Below are positions 57,750-63,110 of a stretch of 64,000 nt of DNA, in pieces (position 1 is the stretch's first letter; each line of letters starts with the position of its first letter). The position numbers and the translations under genes are program-made. The notes beneath the pieces are model-generated. The model saw nothing but the letters and a program-made list of their open reading frames with translations. It made no database searches and had not been told where the DNA came from. The stretch is from Psychroflexus salis (GTDB lineage: Bacteria > Bacteroidota > Bacteroidia > Flavobacteriales > Flavobacteriaceae): assembly GCF_014640175.1 (NCBI RefSeq), contig NZ_BMGL01000001.1, positions 62,001-126,000 of the forward strand, given 5' to 3'.

Positions 57750-58598
57750 GTGTTAATCAATCAAAGCCATAGGCTACAAACTGAGCTTGAAAAAGCAAAA
57801 CAAAAGCAGTACAAAATTGGCTTGGTACCCACTATGGGTGCATTGCACTCTGGGCATTTAGCATTAATAGGCGAAGCTTTGCAAGTATGCGACCTTGCTG
57901 TGGTAAGCATTTTTGTAAATCCGACTCAATTTAATAATTTTTCCGATTTAGAAAAATATCCAAGGCATTTAGAGCATGATGTTTTAAAAATACAAGCAGC
58001 ATATCCAGATACACTTGTGTTTGCTCCAGATGTTAACGACATATACGGAGCGCATGTTGAAGCTGAAAATTTTGATTTTGGCAGCATTACAAAATTTATG
58101 GAAGGCGAATTTAGAACTGGGCATTTTAATGGTGTAGGCACCATTGTTAAACGTTTATTTAACATCGTAAAACCCGACTATGCTTTTTTTGGCGAAAAGG
58201 ATTTTCAGCAACTACGCGTAATTCAGAAACTTGTTGAAATTACGCAACAACCTGTGCAAATTGTAGGCTGTAAAACTCAACGGGAAGCCAGTGGTTTAGC
58301 AAAAAGTTCGAGAAACGAACGCCTAAGCGCGACCCAAAAAGAAGAAGCAAAAATAATTTATGAAGCGCTACAAATGGTAAGCACTAATTTTAAAAAAAAC
58401 AGCATTGCCGACCTAAAAAAACAAGTTGAGTTGCTTTTTAAAGCACAGCCTAATTTTGAATTAGAATATTTTGAAATTGCCGACGTTAAAGATTTAGTAC
58501 CATGTATTAGCAAAAAGCCAAATACGAAATACCGAGCCTTTATCGCCGCTTTTGTAAACCAAGTTCGCTTAATTGATAACCTAGCACTTAATTATTAA
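57750..58598 (+). CDS. panC: Pantothenate synthetase
   Basis: This 282-residue enzyme joins pantoate and beta-alanine with ATP to give pantothenate, the coenzyme A precursor. The HIGH motif is in PTMGALHSGHLALI (H33-x-x-H36), and the KMSKS-like loop is ASGLAKSSRN. The start is a GTG at 57750; no ATG would keep the N-terminal strand. It is followed by panD after 6 bases, so the two beta-alanine-linked steps are encoded together. Confidence 0.96.
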   Translation: MLINQSHRLQTELEKAKQKQYKIGLVPTMGALHSGHLALIGEALQVCDLAVVSIFVNPTQFNNFSDLEKYPRHLEHDVLKIQAAYPDTLVFAPDVNDIYGAHVEAENFDFGSITKFMEGEFRTGHFNGVGTIVKRLFNIVKPDYAFFGEKDFQQLRVIQKLVEITQQPVQIVGCKTQREASGLAKSSRNERLSATQKEEAKIIYEALQMVSTNFKKNSIADLKKQVELLFKAQPNFELEYFEIADVKDLVPCISKKPNTKYRAFIAAFVNQVRLIDNLALNY

Positions 58599-58604
58599 AT
58601 TATA

Positions 58605-58955
58605 ATGTACGTACACGTAGTTAAATCGAAAATACATCGGGTAAAAGTTACCGGTGCCGACTTAAATTATATTGGAAGCATTACCATTGACGAAGATTTA
58701 ATGGATGCAGCTAATATTATTGAAGGTGAAAAAGTTCAGGTGGTAAACAACACCAACGGAGAACGGCTAGAAACTTATGCCATACCTGGGCCAAGAAAAA
58801 GCGGAGAAATTACCTTAAACGGAGCAGCAGCACGAAAAGTTGCCGCTGGCGATGTGCTTATTTTAATGACTTATGCCATGTTAGAGCTAGAAGAAGCTAA
58901 GCAATTTAAGCCTGCTTTGGTATTTCCCAACGAAGAAAACAACCTACTTACATAA
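58605..58955 (+). CDS. panD: Aspartate 1-decarboxylase proenzyme
   Basis: This 116-residue proenzyme self-cleaves between G24 and S25 in [13 protein letters not shown] to form the pyruvoyl group. It then decarboxylates aspartate to beta-alanine for Pan[23 protein letters not shown] is the conserved mid-part. The length is slightly short of the usual 126 but complete. The next gene starts one base after the stop. Confidence 0.96.
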
Positions 58956-58956
58956 G

Positions 58957-59934
58957 ATGCCTAAACTAAAGCTGAAAAAGATAGCCAAAATAAGTTTGCC
59001 CATTATTTTAGGCGCTTTTTTTGTTGGCTTTTCTATTTTTTCTTCTACCGAAGAAGAACGCTATCAAATCTGGCACACCATTACCAACGCCAACCCTTTT
59101 TGGGTTAGTGTTTCTGTAGTTTTAGGAATTTTATCGCATTGGGCTAGAGCTTTACGTTGGAAGTATGCTTTGCAACCCTTAGGCTGTAAACCCAAAACCC
59201 TAAATAGTTTTTTTGCCATTATGTTTGGTTATTTAAGCAATTTGGGCGTACCGCGCTCTGGCGAAATATTACGCGGAGCAAGCTTAGCTTCTTACGAAAA
59301 CATTAACTTCGAAAAATCTTTTGGCACGATTGTAAGCGAACGTATTGTAGATTTAATCGTGCTTATCTTAATCATCGGAATTGCCCTTATTAATCAATCG
59401 CAAGAGTTATTGGCTTTGTTTGAAATCTTTCAAATTAATCCCTTATTAAGCCTATTCATTATGTTGAGTCTCGTGTTTTTATTTTTTATTTTTCTGAAAA
59501 TCTTAAGCTCATCTCAACATGCTTTCATTTTAAAAATTAGAAGTTTTTTTGAAGGGCTTTGGCAAGGCATGCAAAGCATTATACATATGAAAAATAAATT
59601 CGCTTTTGGCTTATACACCTTAGCTATTTGGGGTTTATACATCGCTATCTTTTTTGTAATTAAGTATAGCGTTCCCGAAATGCAAGACTTGGGTTTTGGG
59701 CCACTTTTAGTTGCTTTTATAGTTGGTACGTTTTCTATGTCTTTAACCAGCGGTGGCGTAGGTATTTTTCCTATAGCTGTAGGAGCTGTTTTGTATATGT
59801 ACGGTATTTCTAAAGTATCTGGCGAAGCATTTGGATGGATTTTATGGTCTAGCCAAACCGCACTAACACTTATCTTAGGAATCATTTCTGCAATCTTACT
59901 TCCAATTTACAACAAGAACCAAATTTTTAAGTAA
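58957..59934 (+). CDS. Flippase-like membrane protein (LPG synthase TM region/UPF0104)
   Basis: This 325-residue protein has about eight membrane helices, typical of the lysylphosphatidylglycerol-synthase transmembrane family. It includes ILSHWARALRWKYALQPLG, FGYLSNLGVPRSGEILRGA and a late FSMSLTSGGVGIFPIAVGAVL. There is no cytoplasmic aminoacyl-transfer domain, so it is a stand-alone flippase-like protein, and substrate and direction are unknown. It is coupled to panD (one base apart) and precedes the hydrolase-fold gene by 33 bases. Confidence 0.9.
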   Translation: MPKLKLKKIAKISLPIILGAFFVGFSIFSSTEEERYQIWHTITNANPFWVSVSVVLGILSHWARALRWKYALQPLGCKPKTLNSFFAIMFGYLSNLGVPRSGEILRGASLASYENINFEKSFGTIVSERIVDLIVLILIIGIALINQSQELLALFEIFQINPLLSLFIMLSLVFLFFIFLKILSSSQHAFILKIRSFFEGLWQGMQSIIHMKNKFAFGLYTLAIWGLYIAIFFVIKYSVPEMQDLGFGPLLVAFIVGTFSMSLTSGGVGIFPIAVGAVLYMYGISKVSGEAFGWILWSSQTALTLILGIISAILLPIYNKNQIFK

Positions 59935-59967: not shown

Positions 59968-61116
59968 ATGAAAAAAATATACTTCCTGCTTATTGGCTTT
60001 ATCTTTATAAGCAATCCACTTAAAGCCCAACACATTTATCAAGATATTGAATCTGAATTTTTAGAGCAAAATAGGAAAATTAAACTACAACTTCCACGTT
60101 CTTACAAAACCAATCCAGATAAGGAATACCCTATTATTTTAGTATTAGATGCCGATTATTTATTCGAACCCATCGGTGGAATGGTAGATTACTTGAGCTA
60201 TTGGGAAGAAGTTCCTGAAGCTATTGTAGTAGGAATAATACAAAATGAAAGTCGTAAAGATGATTTTTTAATCGACGACCAAGACTATTTACCTTCAGGT
60301 CCGGGTGAAGCTTTTTTCGATTTTATTGAATTAGAACTGATTACCTATATCGAAAACAACTACCGCACTACTCCGCTTCGCGTAATTGCTGGACATGGAG
60401 AAAGCGCTAATTTTAGCAATTTTTTTCTGTTTAGAAAAGATCCGCTTTTTCGTGCTTACATCAATTTTAGTCCGTTTTTTACAAAAAAAATGAAAAAAAG
60501 AGTGGTAAGCGGACTATCCAAAACTAATTCGAGAACATGGTACTATTATGCTTTTAGCGAGAACGAACCCCAAGAGCAATTAAGAGCCATGAAAGACCTA
60601 GCCATTGAAGCTGAATTAATTGAAAATTCTAATTTAAACTTCTATACCCATAAATATAAAGATGCCACACATTTTACATCAGTAAGTCAGGGTATTGGCA
60701 GCGCTTTAGAAGAAATTTTTGCTGTTTTTAAACCCATTACTCCCCAAGAATACGACCAAAACTTATACCATGCAGAATCGCCCGTTGTATATTTGGAAGA
60801 CAAGTATTACGATATCGCCACTTTTTTTAATTTAAAAATAGCTATGCGGGTAAACGATCTTATGTTTGCATCGCGAGCAATCGAAGAAAAGAAAAATTGG
60901 GAGGAGTACAAAGAATTGTCCAAATTGGCAAAGAAGCATCAACCCAAAACGCTGCTCAGTAGTTATTTTTTAGCTCGGCATTATCAAGAAATTGGAGAAC
61001 CTAAAAAAGCGCTTAAGTATTATCAAGAAGCTTATGGTTACCAAGCTGTTGGACAGCTAACACAAGATTTAATGCTAATTCGCGCAGAAGAAATTAAAGA
61101 AGTTTTTGGATACTAA
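59968..61116 (+). CDS. Esterase-fold (alpha/beta hydrolase) protein lacking the nucleophile serine
   Basis: This 382-residue protein has a signal peptide (to about residue 21) and an esterase-D-like alpha/beta-hydrolase domain (about 22-260: LQLPRSYKTNPDKEYPIILVLDADYLF, EVPEAIVVGI). A helical, TPR-like tail follows (about 330-375, LARHYQEIGEPKKALKYYQEAYGY). At the elbow, where related enzymes read GHSxGG, this one reads G142-H-G-E-S-A. The nucleophile position 144 is Gly, with a Ser two residues on. Flavobacterial proteins beside radA often have this GHGE form, as far as I recall. It may be a non-catalytic binder, or it may use Ser146. Confidence 0.82.
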   Translation: MKKIYFLLIGFIFISNPLKAQHIYQDIESEFLEQNRKIKLQLPRSYKTNPDKEYPIILVLDADYLFEPIGGMVDYLSYWEEVPEAIVVGIIQNESRKDDFLIDDQDYLPSGPGEAFFDFIELELITYIENNYRTTPLRVIAGHGESANFSNFFLFRKDPLFRAYINFSPFFTKKMKKRVVSGLSKTNSRTWYYYAFSENEPQEQLRAMKDLAIEAELIENSNLNFYTHKYKDATHFTSVSQGIGSALEEIFAVFKPITPQEYDQNLYHAESPVVYLEDKYYDIATFFNLKIAMRVNDLMFASRAIEEKKNWEEYKELSKLAKKHQPKTLLSSYFLARHYQEIGEPKKALKYYQEAYGYQAVGQLTQDLMLIRAEEIKEVFGY

Positions 61117-61119
61117 ATT

Positions 61120-62475
61120 ATGGCTAAAAACAAAGTAGCTTTCTTTTGCCAAAGTTGTGGTGCGCAATACGCCAAATGGCAAGGGCAATGCAATGCATGT
61201 AAAGAATGGAATACCTTAGTAGAAGAAGTAATTACCAAAGAAGAAAAATCTTCTTGGAAAACAACTAGCGTACCCAAAAAAGTTACCCAACCCCAAAAAA
61301 TAAACGATATTGAAGTTGCCCGCGAGCAACGTTTAGTTACCCAAGACCAAGAGCTTAATCGTGTTTTAGGTGGCGGAATTGTACCGGGCTCCTTAATTTT
61401 ATTAGGTGGCGAACCTGGAATTGGCAAAAGCACTTTGTTGCTTCAGGTAAGTTTGCAATTGCCCTATAAAACCTTGTATGTATCTGGCGAAGAAAGCCAA
61501 CAACAAATAAAAATGCGCGGCGAACGCATTACTAGTCAAAGCGAAAATTGCTACATCCTTTCCGAAACCAAAACTCAACATATTTTTAAGCAAGTTGAAG
61601 CCATTGAACCTGATATTTTAATTATCGATTCCATTCAAACTTTGCATACCGATTATGTAGAAAGTTCACCTGGAAGCGTATCACAAATTCGCGAATGCAC
61701 ATCTGAGCTCATTAAATTTGCTAAAGAAACCAACACGCCTGTTTTATTAATCGGCCACATCACCAAAGAAGGCAGCATAGCTGGACCCAAGGTGTTGGAA
61801 CACATGGTAGATTGTGTGTTGCAGTTTGAAGGCGACCGTAACCATGTATATCGAATTTTACGTGCACACAAAAACCGTTTTGGCTCTACCCACGAATTAG
61901 GAATTTACGAAATGTATCACCAAGGTTTACGCCAAGTTAGCAATCCGTCCGAATTATTGGTTTCTCGTGGCAACGAAGACCTCAGCGGCACCGCTATTGC
62001 CGCTACTTTAGAAGGCATGCGCCCACTCATGGTCGAAATACAAGCTTTGGTTAGCTCTGCTGTATACGGCACACCACAACGCTCTACAACAGGCTACAAT
62101 GCCAAACGACTCAATATGCTATTGGCGGTTTTAGAAAAACGAGCAGGCTTTCGCTTAGGCGCGAAAGATGTGTTTTTAAATATTACTGGCGGAATTAGCA
62201 TAGACGACCCCGCTTTAGATTTAGCCGTAGTTGCTGCCATTTTATCTTCTAACGAAGATGTTTCTATTTCAAGGAAAAGTTGCTTTGCAGGCGAAATTGG
62301 CCTTGCCGGCGAAATTAGGCCTGTAAGTCGTGTGGAACAACGCATTTTAGAAGCTGAAAAACTCGGTTTTGAAAGCATTGTTATTGCAAAAGAAAGCAAA
62401 TTACCAAAAAGCAACTACCAAATACAATTGGTGCGTGTTGCTAAAATTGAAGATGTAGTGGATTTTTTGTTTTAG
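61120..62475 (+). CDS. radA: DNA repair/recombination protein RadA (Sms)
   Basis: This 451-residue RecA-like helicase acts in branch migration and processing of recombination intermediates. It has the C4 zinc finger (C10, C13, C24, C27), Walker A GGEPGIGKST (about 96-105), the RadA-specific KNRFGST, and a C-terminal Lon-protease-like domain (GGISIDDPALDLAVVAAILSS). Length and motifs are standard. It starts three bases after the hydrolase-fold gene and ends the panC-to-radA series. Confidence 0.97.
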   Translation: MAKNKVAFFCQSCGAQYAKWQGQCNACKEWNTLVEEVITKEEKSSWKTTSVPKKVTQPQKINDIEVAREQRLVTQDQELNRVLGGGIVPGSLILLGGEPGIGKSTLLLQVSLQLPYKTLYVSGEESQQQIKMRGERITSQSENCYILSETKTQHIFKQVEAIEPDILIIDSIQTLHTDYVESSPGSVSQIRECTSELIKFAKETNTPVLLIGHITKEGSIAGPKVLEHMVDCVLQFEGDRNHVYRILRAHKNRFGSTHELGIYEMYHQGLRQVSNPSELLVSRGNEDLSGTAIAATLEGMRPLMVEIQALVSSAVYGTPQRSTTGYNAKRLNMLLAVLEKRAGFRLGAKDVFLNITGGISIDDPALDLAVVAAILSSNEDVSISRKSCFAGEIGLAGEIRPVSRVEQRILEAEKLGFESIVIAKESKLPKSNYQIQLVRVAKIEDVVDFLF

Positions 62476-62533: not shown

Positions 62534-62761
62534 TTGGTCATAACTGATGAAAACTACCGCTATTTTCTGAAAAAATACGAATATTACATTAGCTCGTTTG
62601 TTGAGACATTTTGTTATTGCCTGATAACCAATTATTTTCATTTGTTAATTCGAATAAAAGATGAACAACAAATTGAAGAAGGGATGCAATTTAAAATGAA
62701 GAAACAAAAATCTAAAAGCCTTCAATAAAAAATACAACCGAAAAGGAAGCTTGTTCATGCG
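62534..62761 (+). pseudogene. Remnant of a Y1 (REP-associated, RAYT) transposase
   Basis: The first frame reads ITDENYRYFLKKYEYYISSF, then VETFCYCLITNYFHLLIRIKDEQ. The latter is the HUH region of Y1 transposases, normally CYCLxPNHFHLLxR. The first His of the HUH pair is changed (NYFH). A frame change and internal deletion follow, and AFNKKYNRKGSLF, the later conserved block of RAYTs, appears at 62718-62756. The N terminus and the catalytic Tyr are absent. It is a dead copy beside its own type of palindrome. Confidence 0.75.
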
Positions 62762-63110
62762 GGTAAATGTGTTTGCCGTGTACGAACTTTGTACTGCTTT
62801 TATTCCGAAAATGCTAGCCAACGGATTTGGACGCGTGGTGAATTTGGTTTCGGGTATACAAGACCAACCCGAACTTTCGCCTTATAGTACTTCTAAAGCG
62901 GCATTGGCTAAATTAACAGAAGATTTGGCTGTAAAATTCGATGATACGAATGTGCGCATTAACGCACTCGACCCAGGTTGGTTGCAAACTGATTTGGGTG
63001 GAGAATATGCTGAGCATCCCGTAGAAGGGGTAATGCCCGGCGCACTACAACCCGCACTCGTGGAAAACGATGGCCCTAACAGGAAAACTTTTTTTGCTTT
63101 GGATGAATAG
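62762..63110 (+). pseudogene. Short-chain dehydrogenase remnant lacking the NAD-binding half
   Basis: About 116 codons encode the C-terminal half of a classical SDR: VNVFAVYELCTAFIPKML, GFGRVVNLVSGIQDQPELSPYSTSKAALAKL (with the Y-S-T-S-K catalytic pair), VRINALDPGWLQTDLGG and a final KTFFALDE. The N-terminal Rossmann part with TGxxxGxG is missing. The frame runs without interruption from the transposase block GSLFMR into this part, so the junction near 62761 looks like a deletion scar that fused the two remnants. With no proper promoter or N terminus it should not make a working enzyme. Confidence 0.78.

Follow-up and report, generated by a model that had tools for sequence, protein, structure and literature searches.

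Does a protein that has the fold of an esterase, but not the serine that attacks the ester, still cut its ligand, or does it bind it? This question is raised by a gene in the window, by which we mean the whole stretch of 64,000 nucleotides of Psychroflexus salis DNA that was analyzed (host genome, 2.87 Mb). The features of this gene and its product are the following:

59968..61116, + strand: exported esterase-fold protein without nucleophilic Ser, 382 aa (open reading frame, PF00756, structure model)
59968..60027, + strand: probable signal peptide, residues 1-20, then Gln21 (read from the sequence; model helix 2-15)
60391..60411, + strand: degenerate nucleophile elbow GHGESAN, residues 142-148 (sequence, alignment)
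60565..60567, + strand: Glu200, presumed triad-acid column after strand 7 (fold position, alignment)
60670..60672, + strand: His235, catalytic-His column after strand 8 (model, alignment)
60742..61113, + strand: helical TPR-like tail, residues 259-382 (DSSP of the model; weak TPR matches)

The original prediction of an exported hydrolase-fold protein with Gly at the nucleophile position was borne out by the reading frame of 382 aa, its PF00756 match, and the GHGES motif from residue 142, which places Gly144 (60397-60399) at the Ser position and Ser146 as the next Ser. The PF00756 profile ("Putative esterase") matched residues 29-172 with an E value of 1.1e-10 and 42.2 bits, above the gathering score of 22, and all 29 members of set A1 matched it as well (E up to 0.05). 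The putative signal peptide, judged by eye from the sequence, ends in AQ, and Gln21 was conserved in 187 of 190 family members. An AlphaFold2 model built from 29 sequences had a normal fold (mean pLDDT 91.8, pTM 0.84), in which strand 134-143 enters the elbow, 190-197 precedes residue 200, and 223-230 precedes His235. The model thus has the order nucleophile, acid, base, which an excerpt of PMC7034887 gives for the hydrolase fold.

The added TPR-like tail that had been predicted held up as a helical region, since residues 259-380 were all-helical in the model and a full-length structural match to 4W9R included the tail, whereas its sequence support as TPR was weak (TPR_12 on residues 323-356, E 0.0012, best 19.4 bits against a curated cut-off of 30.1). 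Such a tail was not peculiar to the window protein and was also found on Ser-bearing PF00756 relatives. The closest named relative of the protein was from Psychroflexus planctonicus (74% identity). Comparison of the window gene with its nearest relative gave a pN of 0.15 and a pS of 0.73 (dS saturated); the gene is under purifying selection.

The nearest solved structure was 4W9R, the uncharacterized Coch_1243 of Capnocytophaga ochracea (VIA Z 37.1, 356 aligned residues, 28% identity, rmsd 5.1), and the fold is therefore already known. Like the window protein, 4W9R has a helical tail and an elbow without Ser, but in the alignment its residues 144 and 235 are Glu and Val, which makes it more degenerate. 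It figures among homodimer docking targets in an excerpt of PMC5030136. The esterase domain is shared with 3GFF, 2QM0, and 3C87 (PF00756-type serine hydrolases: IroE-like, BES, and Fes), which matched with Z values of 26.3, 28.2, and 22.8 and rmsd values of 5.6, 3.2, and 2.3 over 269, 240, and 215 aligned residues, respectively. By alignment, 3GFF (GHSFGG) and 2QM0 (GHSLGG) differ in having Ser at the elbow. The relatives L117, L119, L216, and L230 also combine an esterase domain with a TPR tail, but they have a GHSxGG elbow and lie on the opposite side of a supported branch (see below).

Residue 144 across the family and its history

The main count comprised 190 full-length members, which are distinct sequences but related and not independent. 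Before this count, 20 of 210 rows were left out, namely 12 Ser-type relatives (L117-L128), two pieces of the broken locus L026, and six short or partial tandem copies. The elbows of these copies were GHGKSSN in L154_1, GHSEMAN in L163_5 (Ser at 144), GYEKSVN in L164_3 (Glu), GYKHSAS in L165_6 (Lys), and GDDNFTD in L166_6, with none in L154_3.

Among the 190 members, position 144 was occupied by Asp in 113, Gly in 63, Asn in 10, Glu in 2, Ser in 1, and Thr in 1. Close homologues with GHSxG, which would have spoken against the original prediction, were sought; 189 of the 190 members had no Ser at 144, and it was likewise missing from all 101 distinct orthologues of an initial survey. Since Ser is missing in nearly all members, its absence is a property of the whole family. 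Ala, Val, His, Tyr, Arg, Cys, Lys, Trp, Ile, and Leu did not occur at 144 among the 190; Replacement by Ala would be the simplest way to lose a nucleophile, and Ala and Val codons are one base away from those of Asp and Gly; both residues were still unused. The sole full-length member with Ser144 (L172, 1847-2992, - strand; elbow GHSFTAN) kept the acid and the His at the usual locus and, from its sequence, is an apparent regain of the triad.

The GHGE wording proved far less general than the absence of Ser. The pair Gly144-Glu145 occurred in 44 of the 190 members, Glu145 being present in 44 of the 63 Gly144 members versus none of the 113 Asp144 members, in which residue 145 was mostly hydrophobic. 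In the window's genus, 24 distinct readable members (leaving out G009, which is broken, and G026, which is split over contig ends) had Asp in 17, Asn in 5, and Gly in 2, the latter being only the window protein and its nearest relative (L002). Conservation of GHGE in homologues was thus not found; within the genus the wording is local to these two proteins, and Gly-Glu arose elsewhere in the family too. Four residues after the nucleophile place, Asn148 was present in 179 of 190 members, and outside relatives mostly had Leu there. This nucleophile+4 place is able to contact ligands in this fold according to an excerpt of PMC7034887.

A tree was built, with the elbow columns removed, from 102 of the 190 members, which had been thinned at 72% identity, together with 29 of 32 outside PF00756 rows; of the three rows left out, two (L233_1, L234_0) were pieces of family members and one (L224_5) was a distant relative. 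The Ser-less family formed one side of a branch with an SH-aLRT of 97 against the 29 outside relatives, in a tree made by a quick method with SH-aLRT and no bootstrap and with several long outside rows. Ser was present at the elbow in 28 of the 29 outside relatives, and Ser versus not-Ser took three changes over the whole tree. The simplest account of these is one loss at the family's base, another outside the family (L226), and the regain inside it (L172). Inside the family, position 144 took 17 parsimony changes over the 102 rows, 13 among Asp, Gly, and Asn and 4 to Glu, Ser, or Thr. For the base of the family, an Mk model gave Asp 0.42, Ser 0.24, and Gly 0.22, whereas parsimony favored Gly first. 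Since the two disagree, an Asp ancestor is not claimed. The Gly144 of the window is one of several independent exchanges, in this case probably from Asn.

The TPR matches of the Ser-bearing L117 and L216 exceeded the Pfam cut-off, and those of L119 and L230 fell slightly short of it. Since Ser-bearing relatives have the tail, it probably predates the disappearance of Ser. Two other Ser-bearing PF00756 proteins (L225 and L232, of the same genus) lacked a TPR match and matched the starch-binding CBM_20, weakly in L225 and slightly above the cut-off in L232.

Locus, neighbors, and distribution

The neighbors of the gene in the window are the following:

57750..58955, + strand: panC and panD, further upstream, often conserved (domain matches)
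58957..59934, + strand: flippase-like gene (PF03706), usual upstream neighbor (domain match)
61120..62475, + strand: radA, usual downstream neighbor (domain make-up)

The last of these is a gene that we take to be radA from its domain make-up. The order panC, panD, flippase-like gene, esterase-fold gene, radA recurred with variations in the examined Flavobacteriaceae loci. When genes within 350 bases were counted as direct neighbors, the flippase-like gene lay directly upstream in 164 and radA directly downstream in 146 of the 190 members. Of the 199 Flavobacteriaceae genomes sampled, 182 had a family member (elbows were read in only part of them), with a best E value of about 1e-72 or lower in each, while Ser-type relatives scored 1e-31 to 1e-40. 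Twelve of the 17 genomes without a member are 2.2 Mb or smaller, and the rest reach up to 3.4 Mb. No match to the gene was found in G004, a genome of the window's genus in which the gap between flippase-like gene and radA is 68 bases, or in G030, where it is 22 bases. Since the gene is absent from these genomes yet common elsewhere, it is widespread in Flavobacteriaceae but dispensable. Its stable placement between the two neighbors, as originally predicted, stood as the usual locus and did not extend to these two genomes.

An obligate partnership with the flippase-like gene was rejected, as the flippase was found in 197 of the 199 genomes versus 182 for the family. One genome (G116) had the esterase-fold gene and no flippase match, another (G028) had the gene on a different contig from an adjacent flippase-radA pair, and in a third (G374) gene and flippase were apart. 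By position only, the flippase-like neighbor is a candidate partner.

Several genera had tandem duplicates of the gene near the flippase-like gene and radA (L156-L162, L030/L155, and others). One tandem copy had a GH[DN]xMGN elbow in L030 and L156-L162, and L163-L166 had an additional copy that was shorter and diverging. In G009, a one-contig genome of the window's genus (locus L026), the gene was disrupted by two stops. Downstream of radA, the window contains at 62751-63110 (+ strand) the C-terminal half only of a short-chain dehydrogenase (PF00106, profile positions 105-192). Its N-terminal half was not seen by eye in the three + frames back to radA, and the piece looks like a gene remnant.

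Binding or catalysis

The reading that we favor, and consider likely, is that the family consists of non-catalytic, periplasmic binding or scaffold proteins, that is, Ser-less pseudo-hydrolases. An essential catalytic residue is absent across a family homologous to enzymes, as is expected of pseudo-hydrolases, which would in addition have a binding function and no catalytic activity. Of the two possibilities named in the original prediction, a pseudoenzyme that binds rather than cuts is the better supported half, and for the family as a whole, given that Ser144 occurs once in 190 members. The ancestor of these Flavobacteriaceae proteins would have had a PF00756 esterase domain (IroE/Fes-like) with a TPR-like tail and would have lost the nucleophilic Ser, in the simplest case by a single event at the root of the protein family. 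Covalent ester chemistry would have gone with it, and the pocket of the former active site, in which Asp61, Gln92, Arg96, Asp99, Asn148, Ser168-Pro169, acid 200, and His235 are conserved, may now bind a ligand or partner. The TPR-like tail may supply protein contacts, the solved relative having been treated as a homodimer.

A nucleophile elbow has a positive phi, which Asp, Asn, and Gly accommodate better than other residues do. The predominance of these three at 144 may reflect a strained elbow turn that tolerates them once Ser chemistry is unneeded, and the pattern fits a position kept for its shape rather than for chemistry. A turn that is kept while its chemistry is not would explain why chemically unlike residues exchange at this position. 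Against this reading of the elbow stand the 4 of 17 changes that led to Glu, Ser, or Thr, and L165_6, a short copy that has diverged and carries Lys, does not follow it. The pairing of Gly144 with Glu145 may mean that an acid at the tip of the elbow is useful for binding, although independent pairs are few.

The other two presumed places of the triad were largely kept. His was present at 235 in 180 of 190 members and in 28 of 29 outside relatives. Column 200 had Asp or Glu in 177 of 190 members versus only 9 of 29 outside relatives, so that it is assigned as the presumed triad acid by its location behind strand 7 of the fold. The His was kept in 109 of 113 Asp-type and 60 of 63 Gly-type members (Fisher p 0.70; rows related), and the acid in 105 of 113 and 60 of 63 (Fisher p 0.75; rows related). 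Since both are kept alike in the two types, they serve no chemistry that needs Asp144; they are either structural or ligand-binding, or water-activating. The His was lost in 10 of the 190 members and both residues in 5. Joint loss of His with Gly144 was not seen among independent pairs, which were few. Ser, acid, and His were all lost in L116, L190, and L192, a deep branch away from the flippase-like gene and radA; since 4W9R also lacks Ser and His, the protein persists without the triad. The strand-end loops on the active-site face had a mean entropy of 1.47 bits versus 1.89 on the opposite face in the Ser-less family, and outside relatives likewise had 1.90 versus 2.46 bits. This conservation, equal in kind in outside relatives, points to an important pocket and not to a new one.

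Since most members retain His235 and the acid, residual chemistry is possible, and we regard it as an unlikely alternative that the Ser nucleophile was given up while catalysis was kept, most members then being periplasmic hydrolases that use an Asp nucleophile or are driven by His and acid without a nucleophile. If this were true, the exchanges to Asn and Gly would be repeated and natural, and the window's GHGES and the GHSFTAN of L172 would be natural mutants at one conserved locus. Its first form, a triad of Asp144, acid 200, and His235 with the Gly and Asn forms, including that of the window, secondarily dead, would resemble the Asp-His-Asp triad typical of haloalkane dehalogenases and epoxide hydrolases. 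Asp144 in 113 of 190 members, the complete set of Asp, acid, and His in 102 of these 190, and Asp as the likeliest state at most nodes from the window to the family base all favor this form. However, Asp-to-Asn and Gly/Asp exchanges recur with His and acid retained, the 63 Gly-type members include a well-supported clade with Gly in 22 of its 23 rows (SH-aLRT 99), and the window protein itself has Gly144 where the dehalogenase/epoxide hydrolase type has Asp at the elbow. We therefore rate this form as improbable. Its second form, in which His235 works with acid 200 to activate water without a nucleophile and residue 144 is free to vary, draws on the retention of both residues whatever 144 is, but is countered by the members that have lost the His or both, and is given an equally low probability.

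A very unlikely reading is that a carboxylate is needed for ligand or metal binding and has moved, so that the acid is Asp144 in some members and Glu145 in others, including the window protein. An acid at 144 or 145 occurred in 159 of 190 members, and the distribution of Glu145 between Gly144 and Asp144 members given above is what would be expected. Of 7 independent pairs, 1 to 3 showed Glu145 changing the same way and none the opposite way; however, the pairs are too few (median p 0.25) for this to be more than suggestive, and 31 of 190 members had no acid at either place. The shifted nucleophile Ser146, the other possibility in the original prediction, is opposed by conservation and has very little probability left: a hydroxyl residue was found at 146 in 161 of 190 members, but these were Thr in 141 and Ser in only 20, the others being Met in 25, Gly in 2, and Ala in 2, and within the window's genus 17 of 24 members had Met; moreover, in the elbow (GxSxG) the nucleophile+2 place belongs to the small residue and is not the apex. 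A decaying pseudogene, which the disrupted copy in G009 and the absences from G004 and G030 might suggest, is refuted for the family by members in 182 of 199 genomes, the open frame, and a pN far below pS, and we see practically no chance of it.

Parallels and meaning for the family

The non-catalytic binding protein that we favor has parallels elsewhere. Neuroligins and other cholinesterase-like binding proteins carry Gly or Asp in place of the Ser and are not known to have a TPR tail. MPT51 of mycobacteria is a non-catalytic relative of antigen 85 in the same wider fold family, and it is not known to have a TPR tail either. In kind, the Ser-less family may be regarded as a bacterial counterpart of the neuroligins, which differ in being eukaryotic and of another hydrolase family; homology is claimed for the fold only. 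An excerpt of PMC5385555 terms a neuroligin-type protein a "catalytically inactive ligand-binding esterase," and in an excerpt of PMC2661963 the esterase active site of CtCE2 also serves binding, with activity kept there. Literature searches, which covered mostly journals outside subscription, returned no paper on the Ser-less family or its Ser-less nature.

The family is a widespread group of exported esterase-fold proteins without the nucleophilic Ser, whose members Pfam nevertheless scores as esterases, and caution is called for, as such genes should not be counted as hydrolases. At a largely fixed locus, it offers a natural series at the catalytic site (Asp, Gly, Asn, Glu, Thr, and one Ser), which allows a direct test of what the elbow is kept for once catalysis is lost.
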